NCBI GenBank assembly: GCA_001899635.1
Contig: MKVQ01000004.1
Span: 1 to 64,000, forward strand
Reading direction: 5' to 3'
From: Myxococcales bacterium 68-20
GTDB lineage: Bacteria > Myxococcota_A > Polyangia > Polyangiales > Polyangiaceae
DNA length: 64,000 nt
The notes under the pieces are model-generated. The model was given only the letters and a program-made list of their open reading frames with translations, made no database searches and had not been told where the DNA came from. Both the position numbers and the translations under genes were made by a program. Shown here in pieces: positions 42,517-52,031 of the stretch (its first letter is position 1; the number at the start of each line of letters is the position of its first letter).

Positions 42517-44370
42517 TCATCGCACGACCTCGACCTCGGGCTTCACGGGGCTAATGGGACGAAGTCCCATCCCGCCAGGGAAGCCGTAGCTGGCATAGTA
42601 GTCCGTCCCCCAGACGGTGACTTCGAAAGGACCCTCACTGAAGATCTTCTGATGACCATAGCCGCACACTTTGTCGCCGAATTTCTGCGAGACGAAGTTC
42701 GCCGTCATGAGGACCCACGCATACTCGTATTCGCCGCCCGTACCGATCGGCTGAAACCCGGACACCTCCCCCGCACACTCGAGCGTTACTGGCAGGAACC
42801 CGTTTTCAGTCCTTCGACGAATGACCGTAAGTGACGTATTCGCGTACGTATGATCGGTGAAGAACACGTAGCGATCTAGATACTGGTCCGTCGGAACGAC
42901 GTTGACGAACTCCGGGTCGCCATTGCTATTGGTCGCACCGTTAGGGTACTGAGCGCTCGGCATGAAGGAGCCGACGAAGAACGGGTGTGCCGCGTCTTGT
43001 GAGCGGACCGTGAATACGGCGTCCGTGGAGAACGAGACGCTCTCGCCGGCGGAAAGAGTCCTGGGAGCGGAGGCAGGTGGCCCGGGGTCGTACGTGAGCA
43101 CCGTCCCATCGACGGCAGCCACGATGCTGTAAGGAGCGACGTCGCGAGCGCGATGAACGTCGTCCTTCGGGTCGGAGCTCCAGCGCGGACGGAACGGCGC
43201 GACCGCATACTCGTGCCCCCACTGCGCAGGAGGTGGAATCTGCTGTTGCATCAAGTCGCAAGCTTGCCATGACGACGGGACATACGAGCAGCGCGCGCCG
43301 CCGAAGAGTCCGATGGGTTTGTCGGCGCTGAGCAAGCTCCCCGTCAAGTCGCTGGCCTGCACGAACTGGAGCAGCTGTCCGCGCGACAGCGTCCATGACT
43401 TCACGTGCCCGGCGGCGGTTCCCACGACGCCCTCTCCGTCGGCGACATCGACCCTGGGCAGCACGGAGACCGTCGTATTGTCCTCACTGGCCACGATCTG
43501 AACGTAGCGGTCGCCCACCAGAGTGCGTGTGCCACCGGTGCCGTCTCCCGGACGCGCGCCAACGCGGCTGGGGCTCACGGCGATATAGCCTTTGTCGTAC
43601 GACGAGATGGGAAGGAGCAGCGACGCCGCCGGGTAGTATCCCTTTGCACCGCCATATGGGAAGATCGCGTACGAGCTGACCGGCACGGAGCTCGATATGC
43701 GAAAAGCCCTCGCGAAACCGGTTCCGCGCGCGGCGACGCTCCCGACCCGCGCCGGCACGACCGCGTCCGGACAGGTGACGTGCGCACCCGTCATGTGAGA
43801 GAGGAACACGACCCCCACCTTGCCGGGCGCGAGCGGTCCCTCGATCTGGGTGTAGGCTGCGTTGCCTTCGGCGTCAGTCTGCACGTCATAGATGGATCGT
43901 GAGATGTCGATCGCCTCTCCGCCGAGCTCGGCCGAAAGGTCCGCCGGTTCGTCCCATGAGTTGGCGATGAGCGCCGCGTAACAGCTGCCTTCGTAGTCGT
44001 TGGGTTGGACGGCGTAGAACTCGCAGCCGATGGAGCCCTTCGATATCGCCGCTGCACGGCAAGCGCTGACGCAGCTGCCGTCGCCACACCCCTTCCCCGG
44101 ACCGCATGTCTCGACCAATTCGTCGGCGCCGCCTCGAGAACTGCAGCCTCGAAGCACCGACTTCAGATCGCGAGAGCAGTAGAGACCGTCACATCCAGCG
44201 TCTCGCTGCTCGGGCTGCGCAGCGTCGAGGGTGTCCGGAAACACGCGCGACGTCTTGTCGAACCCGCTTCGGTCGTTGCCGCAGGACGCCACGGCGAGGG
44301 CGACGAGCCCAAGGACTGCGACGAAACAGAGGCGGGCGGGCGAGCTCCTCTGCCGCGGTTTGGCCGTCAT
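42517..44370 (-). CDS. IgGFc-binding-domain lipoprotein
   Basis: 617 residues from ATG 44370, which overlaps the RCC1 stop by four bases. Signal segment with A-V-A-S-C at about 31. Residues 50-115 are Cys-rich (G-L-Y-C-S-R-D, C-G-P-G-K-G-C-G-D-G-S-C). Residues about 120-600 match the IgGFc-binding N-terminal domain: G-C-E-F-Y-A-V, repeated V-x-x-A-I-x-N-S, A-F-R-I-S-S-S-V-P-V-S-S-Y, Y-P-A-A-S-L-L-L-P, Y-I-A-V-S-P-S-R. In animal mucin-like proteins this domain is an adhesive module; in bacteria it marks large surface adhesins. A surface binding role is plausible, the ligand unknown. It is the last gene of the sigma-factor-led operon. Confidence 0.82.
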   Translation of the reverse strand: MTAKPRQRSSPARLCFVAVLGLVALAVASCGNDRSGFDKTSRVFPDTLDAAQPEQRDAGCDGLYCSRDLKSVLRGCSSRGGADELVETCGPGKGCGDGSCVSACRAAAISKGSIGCEFYAVQPNDYEGSCYAALIANSWDEPADLSAELGGEAIDISRSIYDVQTDAEGNAAYTQIEGPLAPGKVGVVFLSHMTGAHVTCPDAVVPARVGSVAARGTGFARAFRISSSVPVSSYAIFPYGGAKGYYPAASLLLPISSYDKGYIAVSPSRVGARPGDGTGGTRTLVGDRYVQIVASEDNTTVSVLPRVDVADGEGVVGTAAGHVKSWTLSRGQLLQFVQASDLTGSLLSADKPIGLFGGARCSYVPSSWQACDLMQQQIPPPAQWGHEYAVAPFRPRWSSDPKDDVHRARDVAPYSIVAAVDGTVLTYDPGPPASAPRTLSAGESVSFSTDAVFTVRSQDAAHPFFVGSFMPSAQYPNGATNSNGDPEFVNVVPTDQYLDRYVFFTDHTYANTSLTVIRRRTENGFLPVTLECAGEVSGFQPIGTGGEYEYAWVLMTANFVSQKFGDKVCGYGHQKIFSEGPFEVTVWGTDYYASYGFPGGMGLRPISPVKPEVEVVR

Positions 44371-45752
44371 CGAAACCTCACACTGAGGGGCTCGGGATGC
44401 GGGGCGCTGTCTACGGTACCCTGTCCGAGCTCGCCCTTCGTGTTCGCCCCCCAGCACTTCACCTCTCCGCTCTGGAGCAGCGCGCACTTCGCGCTGTCGG
44501 CTGCCGCGATCTGGACGACGGGTCCGCCGAGCGCCGAGGTGGCGATGAACGACATGGAGCTCGTCATGCTCATGTCCCCGGTGCCCAGCCCGCCGCTGCC
44601 GTTGGATCCGCAGCACTGGACGGTGCCGTCACTCAGGCGTACGCACGCGCCATTGCTGCCCAGAGCGACGGCGACCTGTCTCGGCTGAGCAGTCCCGTCG
44701 ACACCAGCGGCGACGGGGAGCCTCTTGGTCGTCGTCGGGCCCGTCCCATCGCAGAGAAACGTCGGCGTCGTGCCGTGGACCCAGCACGCCAGCCGTCCGT
44801 TCGCGATCGCGCATGCGTGAGATGCGCTCGCCGCGATGTCCGAGACGCGCGGAAGGTCGAGCGCGATCGGGTAGGCACGCGCGGGCCCGCTCGGCGGGGC
44901 ATCGCGGCCGGAGACGAAGCCCCACTCGATGAGCACACCATCGCTCGCGATGGCAAACGGGGCGCCTGATCGACCAAAGCGCTCGATGCCATAGGGAAGC
45001 AGGCGATCCGCAAGGCCGGGGGTCGCAGTCTGCACGGCGTCCGAGAGCGCGCTCCGCCCGAGCAGCCCGCTCGCCCCTCCATTGGCTCCCCAGCACCACG
45101 GCTCGCCGGTCTCGAGCGTCGCACACGCGAACGTCGACGTCCCCGCCGCCGACAAGACGTCGACACGACGCGCCGCGGCCGGCAATGGCACACTCGATGG
45201 ACGAGGGTGAGGATCCGCGATGCCCTCGCTGTGCCCGAGGGCAGCGGTCGCGTTGCTTCCCCAGCACCACACGTTCCCGTCCTCGAGAAGCGCGCAGCTC
45301 GTGCTGTCGACCGCGCTGACCTGCAGCGCCGTCGTCAGCTCACTCACGGCGGCTGGCCCTGCTCCCGCATCCCCGGCGCTTGCGACGCCGAGCTGCCCCC
45401 GAGCGTTGTCGCCCCAGCAGCGGACGGTCTTGTCTTGGAGGAGCGCGCAGAAGTGTCCTCTTCCCGCAGTGATCTGGGTCACGCACGGAGTGACGGAGCA
45501 CACGACCGGATCTTCCGGTGGTGGCGTCGGGCCGCCGTCTGCCTCGACGTCGCCCGCGTCGCGATCGCTCGCGTCGAGCCCCGGTTCGCCCGGAGACGGC
45601 GTGCTGGTGTCGAGCGAGGCGTCGGCCGGCGTGCTCGGAGCGACGAACGATGAGCTGTCGTCGTCGCCGCAGGCGAGCGCTGTCGCGCCCGCGAGGACGG
45701 AGCCGGTACCCAACCAGACCGTCAAGACCGAGATACGGTGGGTGCTACTCAT
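44367..45752 (-). CDS. RCC1-repeat lipoprotein
   Basis: 461 residues from ATG 45752. Lipobox G-A-T-A-L-A-C at about 28, Asp/Ser/Pro linker to about 80, then RCC1-type blades with the pattern I-x-A-G-x-x-H-F-C-A-L-L-x-D-x-x-V-R-C-W-G-x-N-x-x-G-Q-L-G. Six or seven blades are visible, each with paired Cys (C-A, C-W) that could form blade disulfides. One blade has C-C-G in place of C-W-G and one W-G without Cys. The same family is cut off at the window start. Start and stop both overlap neighbours by ATGA. Confidence 0.85.
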   Translation of the reverse strand: MSSTHRISVLTVWLGTGSVLAGATALACGDDDSSSFVAPSTPADASLDTSTPSPGEPGLDASDRDAGDVEADGGPTPPPEDPVVCSVTPCVTQITAGRGHFCALLQDKTVRCWGDNARGQLGVASAGDAGAGPAAVSELTTALQVSAVDSTSCALLEDGNVWCWGSNATAALGHSEGIADPHPRPSSVPLPAAARRVDVLSAAGTSTFACATLETGEPWCWGANGGASGLLGRSALSDAVQTATPGLADRLLPYGIERFGRSGAPFAIASDGVLIEWGFVSGRDAPPSGPARAYPIALDLPRVSDIAASASHACAIANGRLACWVHGTTPTFLCDGTGPTTTKRLPVAAGVDGTAQPRQVAVALGSNGACVRLSDGTVQCCGSNGSGGLGTGDMSMTSSMSFIATSALGGPVVQIAAADSAKCALLQSGEVKCWGANTKGELGQGTVDSAPHPEPLSVRFR

Positions 45753-47059
45753 AGTGGCCTCACATTCCGAAGCGCAATGTCCCTGCCAACAGCCCAGATC
45801 GTCCCAGCAGCCCCGGAGATGGCGTAGAGGTCCGACGTGATCGGCAGATTCGTCGCCGTAACCGCGGAGACACGCCAGTTCGTTCCGTCGTAGTGATTGA
45901 TTCGTCCCCAAGCAGCGACCGACCAGAGCTCCGTCGCGCTCGTCGCGAAGAGCCCGCTACGCTCCAGGTACTGGTCGGTCCCCATGCGGCTGCACTCCCA
46001 GGTCGTCGCGCGCGAATCGGAATCGAATGTACCGACGGCGAGGCCCGTCGAGCGTCCGTTGAAGTTGCTCATGAGCCATACGCGGTTTGCGCGGGCCATC
46101 CCCAACGTCACTCCGCGCTTCGTCGTGACCACATAGTCGGCGCAGCTCGCGCTCGCACCGAACGAGGCGAACATCTCCACCCAGGTCGTCTCACCGCTCG
46201 GCTCGACCACGCGGCGCAGCACCGATTGGGCGTAGGGCCCCGACGATCTGGCCTCGGCCCCCGCGATGACGAGCTCGCCGGTTGGCGTCCCCAGCACCTT
46301 GTCCCATTTGAAACTGTTGGGACCGACCGGCGGCAGCTCTGCCGTCGAGAGATCGGACTCGAGCTCAAACGACGGAGCCCCTCCGCCACCGAGCCCGCGA
46401 TGGCGAACGACCCGAGCGACACCGTACCGCGCGGAGCCTGACGCAATCTGCCTGCTCCCCGCGAACCAGACGTCGTTCGCGCTCGTTCCTCCGACGGCCT
46501 CGAGGACGGTGTCCACGTCTCCGGGGAGCTCGGAGAGCGGGATCAACGTCCATGTCAACGAGCTGGAGCTCGGCCCGGTGCCGTGCAGGATGCCGGTGGC
46601 GCTCGTGATCCAGAGGTCCGTCGGCCCGCTCCCCCAGATCGCGTAGAGAGCGTCGTTCCCGGCACGTGCGAGCGTCCAGGACTGGCCATCCCACCGGAAG
46701 ACGTTCCCTTCGTCGCTCACGGCCCAAGCGACGCCCGTATCGTCAGCCCAAACGCTGCGCAGGCTCGTGGGCGTCGTGCTCGAAGGCAGCGGAGTGATGC
46801 ACCACCCGTCGGCGCTGCAGGGCACGCGACCGTCCGCGCCATCGGCCTCCGCGTCGACCGGCACGCCTCCGTCATCGAAGGAGCCGTCCGCTCCGTCGGG
46901 AGGCGGGGTACGCGAGCCGTCGCCGCCATCGGCGTCCGACCGAGCAAGCGGCTCGTCGTCGGCGTCGGTACCACGGCCCGCGCAGGCGGCCGCCGCCATC
47001 GCACCAAGCAAAAGCGCGACGACCATGCGAGAGCGGTCCCGGTAATTGGACAAGCTCAC
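45749..47059 (-). CDS. beta-propeller lipoprotein (first of two neighbours)
   Basis: 436 residues. Lipobox A-A-A-A-C (about 26), long Asp/Gly/Pro linker to about 80, then propeller blades with the step W-A-V-S-D-E-G-N-V-F-R-W-D-G-Q-S-W, L-Y-A-I-W-G-S-G-P-T-D-L-W, I-N-H-Y-D-G-T-N-W and a final W-A-V-G-R-D. This W-x-V-G/S...H-Y-D-G-x-x-W layout is shared with the gene at 47056 and with the propeller half of the haloperoxidase. No enzyme motif. It overlaps both neighbours by four bases, so expression is tightly coupled. Confidence 0.8.
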   Translation of the reverse strand: MSLSNYRDRSRMVVALLLGAMAAAACAGRGTDADDEPLARSDADGGDGSRTPPPDGADGSFDDGGVPVDAEADGADGRVPCSADGWCITPLPSSTTPTSLRSVWADDTGVAWAVSDEGNVFRWDGQSWTLARAGNDALYAIWGSGPTDLWITSATGILHGTGPSSSSLTWTLIPLSELPGDVDTVLEAVGGTSANDVWFAGSRQIASGSARYGVARVVRHRGLGGGGAPSFELESDLSTAELPPVGPNSFKWDKVLGTPTGELVIAGAEARSSGPYAQSVLRRVVEPSGETTWVEMFASFGASASCADYVVTTKRGVTLGMARANRVWLMSNFNGRSTGLAVGTFDSDSRATTWECSRMGTDQYLERSGLFATSATELWSVAAWGRINHYDGTNWRVSAVTATNLPITSDLYAISGAAGTIWAVGRDIALRNVRPL

Positions 47060-48291
47060 CGCTCACCTGCTGCTTCGAGGCTGACGTCCGGGTTCAGGCG
47101 AACGATCACGCCTTTGCCGACGACCCAAACGTCTTTCGGGCCACTTCCCCAGATCGCGTAGAAATCATGGTTACCTTGATTCTTCATGTACAGGCTCGGA
47201 CGCGTCCACTCGTTGCCGTCGTAGTGCAATATGGTGCCGCCTTTGCCGACGACCCAAAGATTCGTCGAGCTCGTGCCCCAGATCCCGTAGAGATCGCTCG
47301 TCGTCGGCACCGCGACGACGTCGAATCGTGGGACCGAACCGCCGCCGAACCGGCGGACGACACCTTGAAGTCCCACGGCCCACACGCTCCCATCCGGAAA
47401 GGCAATGACGGACGTGAGCTCGCGGGACGTTTGCGTGTCGAATGCGAGCCAAGGCGCCTCGCCGTTGGCCTCCCAGAAACCAATCGCTCGCGCCGCGTGG
47501 CCGCTCGGCCCGACACGCCAAATATCGGCCCCAGTCCCCCCGAACGCACTGAGCGAAACGAATCCATTCACGCCGACGCTCGCCCACGCCCCCTCCTTGT
47601 TCCGGAGGAGGAGACTCTTCCCTTGACCAAGGGGCTGCGGTGGCCGGCCCGGCGGTGGCCTGCTCGGGTCCCACGCGCCCCAACCGAGCCCAATCAAGAG
47701 CTGTTGACCGTTGGGCGCACCCAATATGGCATTATACGGATACGCAATCACTGGACCTGGAGCAGCCCCTCCAAGGTCCGTGAAAGCGACGCCACCGTCC
47801 GGAGCAACCTGGCCACGGAGCAACGTAGTCGTGGAGCCCGTGAGCCAGATCTCATTCTGGCCCGTCACCCAGAGACTACGGAGGGTGTCGAATACGTTCG
47901 TGGGCACCTTCGCCCATCTCGTGCCGTCGTAGTGAACGACTGTCCCCGCTGCGCCGGAAGCCCAGACGTCGTTCCTGCTCGTGCCACGCACGCAGAGCAG
48001 CGAATAACGAGCATCTAGGTTTGCGTCCTCTTCGCAGAAGTGGGCTGTCGCACAGCTCTTCGGCCGTTCACATGCGGGGTCGGCGCCCCCATCACATGGG
48101 GGCCCGATACCAGCGTCATCGACGCTCGCGTCGACCTGGTCGAGTCCAGGGCTGCCGTCGGCGAGCGGAATCGCAGACGCGGCATCCTCGTCCGAGCGGT
48201 CACCCTCGTCGGAGACGGCGCAGGCCGGGAGTGCGTACGAGGTCACGACGGAGAGGGTGAGGCTTGCGGCCAAGACGACGATCCGCTTCAT
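47056..48291 (-). CDS. beta-propeller lipoprotein (second of two neighbours)
   Basis: 411 residues from ATG 48291, overlapping the previous stop. Signal segment with L-P-A-C at about 24. An acidic linker and a Cys-containing segment (C-D-G-G-A-D-P-A-C, C-A-T-A-H-F-C) precede propeller blades: D-V-W-A-S-G-A-A-G-T-V-V-H-Y-D-G-T-R-W, E-I-W-L-T-G-S, S-V-W-A-V-G-L-Q-G-V-V-R-R-F, L-Y-G-I-W-G-T-S-S-T-N-L-W-V-V-G-K-G-G-T-I-L. It is a paralogue of the gene at 45749 but diverged. No catalytic residues are apparent; it is probably a surface binding protein. Confidence 0.8.
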   Translation of the reverse strand: MKRIVVLAASLTLSVVTSYALPACAVSDEGDRSDEDAASAIPLADGSPGLDQVDASVDDAGIGPPCDGGADPACERPKSCATAHFCEEDANLDARYSLLCVRGTSRNDVWASGAAGTVVHYDGTRWAKVPTNVFDTLRSLWVTGQNEIWLTGSTTTLLRGQVAPDGGVAFTDLGGAAPGPVIAYPYNAILGAPNGQQLLIGLGWGAWDPSRPPPGRPPQPLGQGKSLLLRNKEGAWASVGVNGFVSLSAFGGTGADIWRVGPSGHAARAIGFWEANGEAPWLAFDTQTSRELTSVIAFPDGSVWAVGLQGVVRRFGGGSVPRFDVVAVPTTSDLYGIWGTSSTNLWVVGKGGTILHYDGNEWTRPSLYMKNQGNHDFYAIWGSGPKDVWVVGKGVIVRLNPDVSLEAAGER

Positions 48292-49502
48292 TTCGTAGGT
48301 CCTTCCTCGCAAGGCTTCGTCACACAGACACCGCGGACGCATGGCTGCCCTGCGGACAGGTCACATTGGTTCCCGCAGGCCCCGCAGTTGGCGGGGTCGT
48401 TCGAGAGGTTCGTCTCGCACCCATTGGTGCGTTCGCCATCGCAATCGCCGTATCCCGTGTCACACGTGAGGCCGCATTGGCCCGAGAAGCACTCGGGCTG
48501 CGCATGGACCTGCGCGGCCGTCACGCCCGGGCAAACGACCTTGCATCCTCCGCAGTTGGCTGGACTGGACAACAGATTGACGCAGCCAGTGAAGTCACAA
48601 TGGGTCTGGCCCTGCGGACAGCCGTCGCCCGTCAGGAGTTGGCAGACCAGCTTCCCGCTACTGTTGGATGCGCAGACCTCTCCGGGCGCACACGCAACTC
48701 CGCATGAACCGCAGTTGTCGGTGGTGTTGATGAGCGTCTCGCACCCGTCGAACAGATCACCGTTGCAATCAGCCCGATTGATCGCGCACACGAGCTTTCC
48801 GCACTCGGAACCGAGACAGGTGTAGCTCATGTAGTCAGGCGGCGCCGGGCGCCCACTGTCATCGCAGACGTTACCGCAGGCTCCGCAGTTGAAGACGTCG
48901 TTCGCAAGGTTTACGCACCGGTCATTGGGTTGACAGAGCGTATTCGGCGCGCGACAGCCACAATACCCGTCGATGCAAGGCATCCCCGAAGGGCACTTTA
49001 CGCCACATGCACCGCAGTTGTTCGGATCGTCCTTGACGGAGACCTCACACCCGTCATCGACGAGACTGTTGCAGTTCGCATAGTCGCTCGAGCATTGGAT
49101 GACGCAGGCCCCGTCTCGACAGTGCGTCTCCATCTGCAACTGCGGGCTGCCATTGCCGCCGTTGTAGACCGGGCAGACGTTCCCGCACCCCCCGCAGTTG
49201 TTGTCATCGGTCTGAAAGTCGATATCGCATTTGAATCGACTGTTCGGACACGTGCCAAACGGCGCAGGACACTCCGTATCGACGCACTGGTCGGAACCGG
49301 CACCGATCGGCGTCGATGCGTCGTTCGCCCCCGCTCCGGCCTCCGGTCCAGGCGTAAAGCTCGGTGTTCCGGAGCCATTGCCTGCGTCGACGTCGAAGCT
49401 GCGACCAAGGTCGAGGTCGGAGGTGCAGGAGACGATCGCGACGATTGCGGCGGTAGCGAGGAGCGAGGAGGCTTTGGTCTGCCAAGGGTATCGCGAGTTC
49501 AT
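48288..49502 (-). CDS. Cys-rich repeat lipoprotein (CGxCG type)
   Basis: 404 residues from ATG 49502. Lipobox A-I-V-S-C (about 26). Residues 70-400 consist of about seven imperfect repeats built on D-x-x-N-C-G-A-C-G-N-x-C followed by C-x-x-G-x-C-x-x-x-C and D-G-C-E-T/V. Such Asn-Cys-Gly-x-Cys-Gly repeat proteins are very common in Polyangiales; some are misnamed tryptophan synthase alpha chain in databases. The Cys residues probably make a rod of small disulfide modules on the cell surface. It overlaps the next gene by four bases and is one base from the anti-sigma-like gene. Confidence 0.82.
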   Translation of the reverse strand: MNSRYPWQTKASSLLATAAIVAIVSCTSDLDLGRSFDVDAGNGSGTPSFTPGPEAGAGANDASTPIGAGSDQCVDTECPAPFGTCPNSRFKCDIDFQTDDNNCGGCGNVCPVYNGGNGSPQLQMETHCRDGACVIQCSSDYANCNSLVDDGCEVSVKDDPNNCGACGVKCPSGMPCIDGYCGCRAPNTLCQPNDRCVNLANDVFNCGACGNVCDDSGRPAPPDYMSYTCLGSECGKLVCAINRADCNGDLFDGCETLINTTDNCGSCGVACAPGEVCASNSSGKLVCQLLTGDGCPQGQTHCDFTGCVNLLSSPANCGGCKVVCPGVTAAQVHAQPECFSGQCGLTCDTGYGDCDGERTNGCETNLSNDPANCGACGNQCDLSAGQPCVRGVCVTKPCEEGPTK

Positions 49503-49503
49503 G

Positions 49504-50289
49504 TCAGTGCGTCTTTTCCGCTTCCATGGCGTGAGCTTTGTCGGCGAGGGCGCGGATTCGCTTCGCGACTGGGCTCGTGGGGTAGTCCTCGAGGAACCGT
49601 GAGGCGAGCGCCAACGTTGCTGTGGTCTGCCCGGCGGCGAGGAGCGCTTCCACGCGAAGGGCGGTAGACTCCGGAACGAGGCGACCGCGACGGAAGCGAG
49701 CGTCGTGCGCATCGAGCATGCGGAGCGCTCCGGTCGTGTCCCCCGCCGCGAGGGTCCGCTTGGTCTCGTCGAGGCTTGCGAGCTCCGCTGCGAGATCCTC
49801 CACATCGACTTCCGCCGCTTCGAGCTTCGCGGATTTGGCTCGCGCGCTCGCCGCGGTGAGCGTCGCTTCCAATGCGCTGCTGCTCGGCGGCGGAGCGACG
49901 ACCGACGGGAGTGCGGTTACGTCCATCGACGGCGGCTCGTCATCGATCGCCGGGATGGCACTCGCCGTCGCCGGCGCATGGAGAGCCATGGGGCTGCCGT
50001 GCGACGCAGGCGACACCGGGGCTGCGGTCTCGCCCTCGCTCGCTGCACGCCACGCGATCGCTCCCACCGCGACTCCGCACGAGACGAGCCCGGTGACGAG
50101 GCGGCGGTTGGAGCTCCAGAAGGAAGGCCCTCTTCGAGGGCTCGCAAGCGCGGGTGCGCTCGCCGATGATGCGACGGCTGCAAGTGTACGCCCGCGAGCC
50201 TCTTCGGAGACTCGGTAGGCGCGTGCGCCTTGCAGGAGCTCACGTTCGAACTCGGTCGACTCTGCATCGAGGATACGACGCTCGCTCAT
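49504..50289 (-). CDS. membrane protein coupled to the ECF sigma factor, possible anti-sigma factor
   Basis: 261 residues. A soluble N-terminal part (1-58; L-L-Q-G-A-R-A-Y-R-V-S-E-E-A-R-G-R-T-L) is followed by one transmembrane helix (about 63-80) and a periplasmic part rich in Ala/Pro/Ser (90-150) ending in TPR-like helices (155-255; L-A-A-G-D-T-T-G-A-L-R-M-L-D-A-H). Start overlaps the sigma stop by ATGA and has GAGGAG upstream. Position and single-span topology suit an anti-sigma factor, but the N-terminus lacks a clear zinc (HxxxCxxC) anti-sigma motif. Call by context. Confidence 0.7.
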   Translation of the reverse strand: MSERRILDAESTEFERELLQGARAYRVSEEARGRTLAAVASSASAPALASPRRGPSFWSSNRRLVTGLVSCGVAVGAIAWRAASEGETAAPVSPASHGSPMALHAPATASAIPAIDDEPPSMDVTALPSVVAPPPSSSALEATLTAASARAKSAKLEAAEVDVEDLAAELASLDETKRTLAAGDTTGALRMLDAHDARFRRGRLVPESTALRVEALLAAGQTTATLALASRFLEDYPTSPVAKRIRALADKAHAMEAEKTH

Positions 50290-50867
50290 CTCTCTTGCTC
50301 CTCGTCGTGCCTACGCAGGCCGTTCGTCAGTTGGTAGCGTCGGACGCGCGCGTGAAAGTCCTCTCGGGCGCGTCGGAGACGCGAGCTCGCCGTTCCGAGG
50401 GGGATCCCGAGCAACGCGGCGATCTCGGCCATCCGTAGCTCCTCGATGTCGGAGAGGACGAGCACGGACCGAAATTCGAGGGGCATCTCGTTGAGGATCG
50501 TGTCGAGCGTCGCGCGCGCATGCCGCTGGGCCGCGAGCTCGTCTGGGGGCGGGGCAGGGTCGCGCTGGTCGAGGAGGGTTTCGTCGAGCACCTCGCGGCG
50601 CCTCCCGAGCGCGCGTCGGCTCTTGGAGGCAACACGCATCGCGACGGCGATGAGGAACGCACGCTCGGCCCCTCGCTCGATGCTCGCGAGCTTTCGAGTG
50701 GCAGTGACGAAGACGACTTGTACGGCATCTTCGACGTCCGCCTCCGGCACTCCGAGATTGCGCAGGTAGCGGCCGATGAACTGGATGTGACGGTCGACGA
50801 GCTGCTCTGCCGTGCAGACTGCAGGGCTCACCTCGTCGTTCGCCATGACTACGGAAGACAAGTCCAA
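50286..50867 (-). CDS. ECF-type RNA polymerase sigma factor
   Basis: 193 residues from TTG 50867, decided by GAGGAG six bases upstream; the next in-frame ATG (50846) has no such site. Region 2 (Q-L-V-D-R-H-I-Q-F-I-G-R-Y-L-R-N-L-G-V, D-V-E-D-A-V-Q-V-V-F) and region 4 (L-N-E-M-P-L-E-F-R-S-V-L, E-E-L-R-M-A-E-I-A-A-L-L-G-I-P-L-G-T) are both clear, and region 3 is missing, as in ECF factors. It heads an operon of a membrane protein and five lipoproteins and presumably drives that operon. Confidence 0.9.
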   Translation of the reverse strand: MDLSSVVMANDEVSPAVCTAEQLVDRHIQFIGRYLRNLGVPEADVEDAVQVVFVTATRKLASIERGAERAFLIAVAMRVASKSRRALGRRREVLDETLLDQRDPAPPPDELAAQRHARATLDTILNEMPLEFRSVLVLSDIEELRMAEIAALLGIPLGTASSRLRRAREDFHARVRRYQLTNGLRRHDEEQER

Positions 50868-50873
50868 GGGGAG

Positions 50874-50879
50874 CTCCTC
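50874..50879 (-). promoter_or_regulatory. GAGGAG ribosome site supporting a TTG start
   Basis: On the minus strand GAGGAG lies six bases before TTG 50867, the chosen start of the ECF sigma factor. A rare start codon on the first gene of the operon may limit its level. Confidence 0.65.
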
Positions 50880-50921
50880 AGCGCCAAGCCGTGGAGTAAT
50901 CCCCGCCTTCTCACCCCACGA

Positions 50922-52031
50922 TCACAGAAAGTTCATTCCGATGCCGATCGCGACGTTCACCGTGACCGCAGGCGACGTGTAGACGGAACGATCGTCGAAA
51001 ACGAGTCTCACCCGAGCGATGGGAGCGACCAGCGCCACCTCGAGCTCGACGCGAAAGCGCGAGCTCACGGCCAAGCTCGAGCGTCCGAGCAGCCCGGCGG
51101 CGAAGTGTGTGGTCGCGTTCGCGCTTGGGGACGCGACCCAGGCGCCCTGGCCGAACAACGCTCCGGCTTCCAGAGTTGCGCACGGTTCGACCTGCCAAAC
51201 GGAGCGCACAGGCCAATGAACGGGGCATCCGTCGAAGCGCGCGGTTGCGAGTTGGAACTGAGCCTTGCCGGGGCCGAGAGCGTGGGAGACCGTTGCGAAA
51301 CCTCCGAGCGACACACGCCCGGACGGGGAGAGGAGCTTCGTGGCTGAACGCTGGTGCAGTTCGAACCAGACGCGGCCGCCCCAGGCGGGTGCCGGGAGCA
51401 AGTTCACGAGACTCGATGCATCCACGCCGATCATCGACGACCATTGAACCGCGTTCCGAGTTTCGAGCGCCGGTCGCGGCGTCGCACGCGCTTGCTCACG
51501 CTGAGGAGGAGCCGGCGTCGAAGCGGCTCCCGTCTGCGGTGGCAACGATGGCTGGTCGGGGCGGGGCACGGCTGGAGGTAGTTGCTCCACGCTGGCTCCG
51601 TCGCGGGTGAGTTCATCGGGAGCGGGCGCACCCCCGAGTGGAAGGAGCGACGCCTGGGGATCGATCCCCATCGCTGCAACGAACGCGAGCGCCGAAACGA
51701 CCTGCTCGCACTGCCGGCCGGAGACTTCGCGCACCGAGGTCTCTGAATTCGCGGCCCGCAGCTCGAGATGCCCACGCACCCCCGTCGGGCTCGCTGTAAC
51801 CGTCACCATGACCTGGCGCGCGCCCACAACATCATCATCACGACGGACGCGATTCGTTCGCGCTCGGATCTGACCGAAGAAGAAGGCGTCATCGGGGCAT
51901 GATGGAGGAGCGCTATAGATGATCCGGATCGGCTCGGTCGCCGCATCGGTCGGAGCGCCGGATGCCATGCGGATGCCGAACGCCGCACACGCAAAGATGG
52001 CACCGAGCGGTCTGGAGCACGATCGGGTCAT
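50922..52031 (-). CDS. secreted protein of unknown function upstream of the ECF operon
   Basis: 369 residues from ATG 52031, followed by a signal sequence (about 5-25, M-A-S-G-A). The frame is open another 400 bases upstream but with Arg/Ser-rich composition. Residues 30-130 are a beta/alpha domain with a Cys pair (S-C-P-D, Q-C-E-Q); 135-195 is a Pro/Gln/Ala linker; 200-369 has alternating strands ending in G-I-G-M-N-F-L, like an outer-membrane barrel with C-terminal aromatic. It lies 54 bases before the sigma factor on the same strand and may be the first gene of that operon. No family recognised. Confidence 0.65.
   Translation of the reverse strand: MTRSCSRPLGAIFACAAFGIRMASGAPTDAATEPIRIIYSAPPSCPDDAFFFGQIRARTNRVRRDDDVVGARQVMVTVTASPTGVRGHLELRAANSETSVREVSGRQCEQVVSALAFVAAMGIDPQASLLPLGGAPAPDELTRDGASVEQLPPAVPRPDQPSLPPQTGAASTPAPPQREQARATPRPALETRNAVQWSSMIGVDASSLVNLLPAPAWGGRVWFELHQRSATKLLSPSGRVSLGGFATVSHALGPGKAQFQLATARFDGCPVHWPVRSVWQVEPCATLEAGALFGQGAWVASPSANATTHFAAGLLGRSSLAVSSRFRVELEVALVAPIARVRLVFDDRSVYTSPAVTVNVAIGIGMNFL

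Follow-up and report, generated by a model that had tools for sequence, protein, structure and literature searches.

An ECF sigma-led operon with five predicted lipoproteins belongs to a family of about 120 diverged copies in a Labilithrix-like genome, built from separately inherited head and tail cassettes

Introduction

FecIRA signalling and the ECF/anti-sigma PULs of Bacteroides combine an outer-membrane protein with an inner-membrane anti-sigma factor and an ECF sigma factor, control surface lipoproteins and occur in many copies per genome. The Bacteroides PULs are discussed in the same work as Dma, a single chain that carries an anti-sigma domain, a transmembrane helix, a long tether and an outer-membrane beta-barrel (PMC13088901). 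Reports of the Dma/Das ECF21 systems are confined to Bacteroidota, and for B. thetaiotaomicron three members are named (PMC13088901). In myxobacteria, multi-copy polymorphic cassettes encode the lipoprotein toxins known as SitA (PMC5562445). Here, we analysed an eight-gene operon within a 64-kb window (the whole stretch of DNA under study), which an original prediction had described as a sigma-led, tightly coupled set of surface lipoproteins.

Results

Layout of the operon and comparison with described systems

The genes BAR-SIG-ANT-CYS-PR1-PR2-RCC-IGG all lie on the minus strand and run from 52031 down to 42517, the span and single direction given in the original prediction. The seven genes that begin with SIG meet at six junctions, of which five are 4-nt start/stop overlaps and the only exception, between ANT and CYS, is a 1-nt gap; the predicted count of five overlaps and one single-base gap was thus correct, but only four of the overlaps are ATGA, the other being GTGA (at 47059). 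BAR lies upstream of SIG, separated from it by 75 nt. The features are as follows.

BAR, 50922..52031, minus strand: secreted protein with an N-terminal alpha/beta periplasmic domain, a Pro-rich tether and a C-terminal barrel (predicted); opens the head cassette
SIG, 50286..50846, minus strand: ECF sigma factor; an alternative TTG start is possible at 50867
ANT, 49504..50289, minus strand: putative anti-sigma factor; closes the head cassette; 4-nt overlap with SIG
Head/tail junction, 49503..49503, no strand: 1-nt gap; exchange boundary of the family (correlation break and start of shared tail DNA)
CYS, 48288..49502, minus strand: Cys-rich rod lipoprotein with CGxCG repeats (predicted); opens the tail cassette
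PR1, 47056..48291, minus strand: W/HYDG beta-propeller lipoprotein (predicted); 4-nt overlap
PR2, 45749..47059, minus strand: second W/HYDG propeller lipoprotein (predicted), more diverged; GTG start, GTGA overlap
RCC, 44367..45752, minus strand: RCC1-type propeller lipoprotein (predicted); Pfam RCC1_2
IGG, 42517..44370, minus strand: IgGFc_binding-domain lipoprotein (predicted); closes the tail cassette; Pfam PF17517

The head shares its layout with FecIRA and the PULs (predicted outer-membrane protein, putative inner-membrane anti-sigma factor, ECF sigma factor and lipoprotein output) and, like them, occurs in many copies per genome. However, the FecIRA receptor is a 22-stranded TonB receptor with an N-terminal signalling domain whereas BAR is predicted to form an 8-stranded barrel; in addition, the operon contains no SusC/D or TonB-dependent protein, and one conserved non-enzymatic kit recurs throughout its family. 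As in Dma, an ECF sigma gene adjoins an arrangement of transmembrane helix, long tether and outer-membrane barrel, but Dma is one protein across both membranes, whereas here the barrel (BAR) and the transmembrane helix (ANT) are encoded by separate genes. ANT and BAR also add TPR and alpha/beta periplasmic domains, and the family has more than 100 copies with a fixed, presumably surface-exposed payload, compared with the three named Dma members of B. thetaiotaomicron. By analogy, the head looks like a Dma protein divided over two genes. The family is like SitA in consisting of multi-copy polymorphic lipoprotein cassettes in myxobacteria, but neither the variable C-terminal toxin domain nor the adjacent immunity gene of SitA/SitI was recognised in the sigma-led eight-gene operon. 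IGG is a clear member of the PF17517 proteins, which elsewhere occur outside such an operon; a search of the open-licence literature found no paper that treats IgGFc-binding and myxobacteria together.

Proteins of the head and tail cassettes

SIG matched the Pfam sigma region 2 and region 4/4_2 models and scored 60.9 bits against TIGR02937 (sigma70-ECF; cutoff 42.9), and it has regions 2 and 4 only in about 190 aa, as is characteristic of ECF (group IV sigma70) factors. The fetched loci contained 137 SIG homologues. The region 2.4 and 4.2 helices of the sigma factors hold variable positions. For BAR, which precedes the sigma gene in most copies, Pfam returned no family and Pfam and NCBIfam gave no confident assignment; a PDB sequence search gave no match for either BAR or IGG. 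The AF2 model of BAR contains an 8-stranded barrel (pLDDT mostly > 85) that matched OmpA in Foldseek (E 2e-8) and, by VIA alignment, NspA (Z 17.6, rmsd 2.5, 149 aligned) and OmpA (Z 17.4). On this model, the C-terminal domain of BAR is predicted to be an OmpA/NspA-like 8-stranded outer-membrane barrel. An alignment of 18 paralogues gave ANT a short cytoplasmic N terminus, one transmembrane helix, a Pro/Ala-rich tether with an LPxAP motif and a C-terminal TPR/BamD-like domain; its match to Pfam YfiO (1e-4) was below the cutoff, and the best BamD chain in the PDB had an E value of 0.03. No anti-sigma domain or model (ZAS, RskA or FecR-like) was recognised in ANT by Pfam and NCBIfam; with its one transmembrane helix and its genetic coupling to SIG, ANT is a putative anti-sigma factor. 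A tethered ANT with one transmembrane helix, a barrel protein and an overlapping ECF sigma gene together make up the layout of a trans-envelope sigma switch.

Among the tail proteins, CYS matched the Stig1-like Cys repeats of Pfam (1e-7) and an MXAN_6577-like Cys-rich model (E 5e-24, below the cutoff), and its alignment contains many invariant Cys residues. PR1 gave a weak Ycf48/PSII_BNR-like match in Pfam and NCBIfam; PR2 had no Pfam match and no confident family in either database, and belongs with PR1 to one HMM family. RCC matched Pfam RCC1_2 (1e-35), and IGG matched Pfam PF17517 (IgGFc_binding) at 1.1e-97, with 327 bits against a cutoff of 25.6. The AF2 model of IGG is mostly beta (pLDDT 86) and found no clear match among solved structures, the best being a 104-residue sub-domain at Z 8.6. 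Lipobox-like N termini were recognised by eye in all five tail proteins of the window, and across the 98 copies a crude motif test detected one in 66-86 (67-88%), depending on the tail gene. No toxin domain was recognised in the tail proteins by Pfam and NCBIfam, and PADLOC gave no matches. Presumably, the five lipoproteins lie exposed on the cell surface and function jointly in adhesion or recognition; since IGG lacks a clear solved-structure match, the adhesion role is drawn from the family names and the beta-rich folds.

Copies in the same genome

The genome is 11.9 Mb in size and Labilithrix-like, and its assembly consists of 52 contigs with an estimated contamination of 4.2%. Paralogues were fetched locus by locus from ANT or IGG matches and annotated with HMMs that were seeded with the window proteins and iterated. 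The genome contains 108 ANT homologues and 138 IgGFc_binding domains (three short fragments left out), and the ANT-IGG distance varies little (mostly 6.2-6.8 kb). The order BAR-SIG-ANT-CYS-PR-PR-RCC-IGG recurs throughout the genome: 124 units contain SIG and CYS, 98 of these are strictly complete with two propellers, and 84 of the 98 have BAR detected directly upstream. Furthermore, 93 of the 98 complete units are intact, in that each of their genes reads as one open frame over 75% or more of its model. The median span of a unit is 9.5 kb, and the family occupies 8-10% of the genome. Start/stop overlaps are kept at most junctions across copies, the ANT>CYS junction being among the least conserved. 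At least 13 heads without a tail and at least 5 tails without a same-strand sigma gene were also found, both counts being lower bounds because loci were picked by ANT or IGG matches. The genome also has at least 150 sigma region-4 matches, most with the head membrane protein directly downstream.

The copies are diverged, with a median pairwise identity of 20-41% depending on the gene and no near-identical pair; they are thus old and not an assembly artefact. In unsaturated comparisons, dN/dS was about 0.2-0.6, which indicates that each of the eight genes is under purifying selection in the pairs compared, and broad diversifying selection was not seen in these pairs. About 120 diverged copies of the operon, the one in the window included, are present in this one genome. 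The arrangement is not a product of chance, because some 100 diverged paralogous operons in the genome have this order and these overlaps too, which bears out the sigma-led, tightly coupled operon originally proposed. Separately, IgGFc-domain fragments with in-frame stops (G000:C48:255528-256006 and G005:C290:29163-29576) are probably decayed copies.

Independent divergence and exchange of head and tail

Pairwise identities across the 98 operons were correlated within the head (Spearman 0.40-0.49) and more strongly within the tail (0.71-0.82), whereas head and tail were uncorrelated with each other (-0.11 to 0.09). The closest paralogue was the same for 42-49% of modules within the head and 48-62% within the tail, but for only 2-10% across the boundary. 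The break at ANT/CYS is sharp: the last ANT columns track SIG, and the first CYS columns track the tail. Because the five lipoproteins diverge together, they form the fixed set that had been predicted and not random combinations without the sigma factor.

Exchange was also seen in individual pairs. M023 and M062 have a recently shared tail (dS 0.20-0.37) but long-diverged heads (dS 0.94-1.54), while M042 and M068 have a recently shared head (dS 0.38-0.52) but long-diverged tails (dS 0.95-1.44). In AU tests, head data rejected two tail groups, one with four members (p 4e-65) and a second one (p 2e-6), and tail data rejected head clades (p 1e-34 and 3e-51); the groups were picked from the same identities, so these p values are inflated, but at 269-551 units the likelihood gaps are large. 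In tail-sharing pairs, the shared DNA starts a median of 151 nt past the ANT stop, within the start of CYS, and stops a median of 4 nt beyond the IGG stop, so what is exchanged is the block of five lipoprotein genes. Tails were also found behind unrelated heads. These results show that each unit consists of a head (BAR-SIG-ANT) and a tail (CYS-PR1-PR2-RCC-IGG) that are separately inherited and joined at ANT/CYS.

K-mer counts upstream of the head, at ANT/CYS and downstream of IGG revealed no recombination site or flanking repeat common to the copies. Flank synteny was used to look for tail replacement in place: the flanks of L150/M050, a pair orthologous as whole operons, were syntenic, and L152/M074, L155 and L173 showed no flank synteny, so that tails may have been replaced in place or transposed. 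Heads and tails can also be divergent or lie apart; at three loci (G000:C44 near 197-201 kb, G000:C23 near 238-243 kb and L157), they are arranged divergently and do not form one operon.

Distribution in other genomes

Among named relatives, the full operon was found in Labilithrix MAGs; outside the genus, CYS-tail matches were weak and partial only (best candidates per genome, 108 family and 284 phylum genomes). Within the genus of 12 genomes, the CYS marker was counted about 129 times here and 40, 12, 4, 4, 3, 2 and 1 times in seven others, with one weak partial match in a further genome and none in three. ANT homologues occur in 71 of 79 genomes of the family, and BAR, SIG and ANT stand together without the CYS-IGG tail at 18 of 20 inspected loci of other genomes. 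Several of these tail-less heads precede one different lipoprotein, and in two cases the downstream gene encodes a GH8-family enzyme. The tail is genus-specific, and the head triad is family-wide, with other payloads elsewhere. PF17517 proteins are also present in Nannocystis, Minicystis, Sorangium and Polyangium without the operon, and the rest of the family has at most 22 IgGFc_binding candidates per genome.

Four loci (L149, L150, L152 and L167) are orthologous between species as whole operons. L155, in contrast, combines an M095-type head with a tail 86-91% identical to that of M013, and L154, L159, L168 and L173 are mixed in the same way, the head matching one copy of the window genome and the tail another.

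The GH8 lipoprotein genes lie within about 10 nt 3' of ANT at L265 (G086) and L261 (G019), which suggests that heads can control polysaccharide-degrading surface enzymes. At L264 (G003, same genus, CYS-tail marker not found), another type of lipoprotein, encoded by one gene, comes after the head triad, possibly a pre-tail state. The IgGFc gene of L185, from a MAG labelled Phycisphaerales, equals that of L183, from a Polyangiaceae MAG, in score, identity and matched residues; L185 is probably a misbinned contig.

Promoter searches

No sigma-dependent promoter motif common to the copies was found upstream of BAR, where a Gibbs motif search returned only an apparent codon-periodic signal. The sole strand-biased element was a TAGANT box, present upstream of BAR in 17 of 84 copies of this genome and in 1 on the reverse strand; it is possibly the housekeeping -10 element of the genus.

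Discussion

We consider it probable that the window operon belongs to a family of about 120 copies that pairs an exchangeable trans-envelope sigma switch with a kit of surface lipoproteins. BAR, in the outer membrane with a tethered periplasmic domain, would contact ANT, in the inner membrane with a tethered TPR domain; on perception of an extracellular or envelope cue by BAR, ANT would let go of the ECF sigma factor. The freed SIG would then transcribe its own operon, and the cell would display that copy's version of the five-lipoprotein kit on its surface, where the kit probably forms a complex for adhesion or recognition. With cue and kit on exchangeable cassettes, recombination could rewire which cue switches on which kit variant. 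It is conceivable, although we lean against it, that more than 100 orthogonal switches and five-lipoprotein variants, recombined at a fixed boundary, serve combinatorial surface display and give one cell a large identity or binding repertoire.

The copies could instead encode a variable surface coat with antigenic or identity variants (kin, phage or predator evasion), of which self-activating sigma factors would allow one or a few to be expressed in a mutually exclusive manner. The presence in one genome of some 120 diverged variants of a single kit, the recombination of tails and the variable positions in the region 2.4 and 4.2 helices of SIG all fit such a coat, which we nevertheless regard as unlikely: dN/dS of 0.2-0.6 in the tested pairs shows no broad diversifying selection, and every copy, in contrast to silent-cassette systems, has a distinct switch of its own.

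The original prediction also held that a single surface structure is assembled and that its assembly is sensed by its own sigma/anti-sigma pair. Tight translational coupling and the co-divergence of the five lipoproteins agree with this proposal, but a head that sensed its own tail should diverge in step with it, whereas heads and tails swap freely: their identities are uncorrelated, closest-paralogue agreement falls from 42-62% within cassettes to 2-10% across the boundary, tails sit behind unrelated heads, and at 18 of 20 loci examined in other genomes the head triad has no CYS-IGG tail. Assembly sensing by a cognate pair is thus unsupported, and we judge it highly improbable.

We give similarly little credence to the view that a selfish or recombination-prone segment has duplicated out of control and that most copies have little function. 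The range of the tail marker from 0 to about 129 copies within one genus, the non-syntenic sites of some operons in a sister species and the few IgGFc fragments with stops point in this direction; against it, 93 of 98 complete copies are intact, all eight genes are under purifying selection in the tested pairs, and flanking repeats were not found. That the copies are SitA-like contact-dependent polymorphic lipoprotein toxins is hardly credible, since multi-copy cassettes of myxobacterial lipoproteins are the only support found and neither a toxin domain nor an immunity gene was recognised in the fixed eight-gene order.

One operon family thus takes up about a tenth of a large bacterial genome, and it is absent or rare in several congeneric species. 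Its roughly 100 pairs of sigma and putative anti-sigma factors constitute a natural experiment on sigma orthogonality, and the head may be a Myxococcota counterpart of dual-membrane anti-sigma sensing. The family further offers a case of sensor-output wiring evolving through cassette exchange, and it provides a testable context for the little-understood IgGFc-binding, RCC1 and Cys-rod lipoproteins of bacteria.
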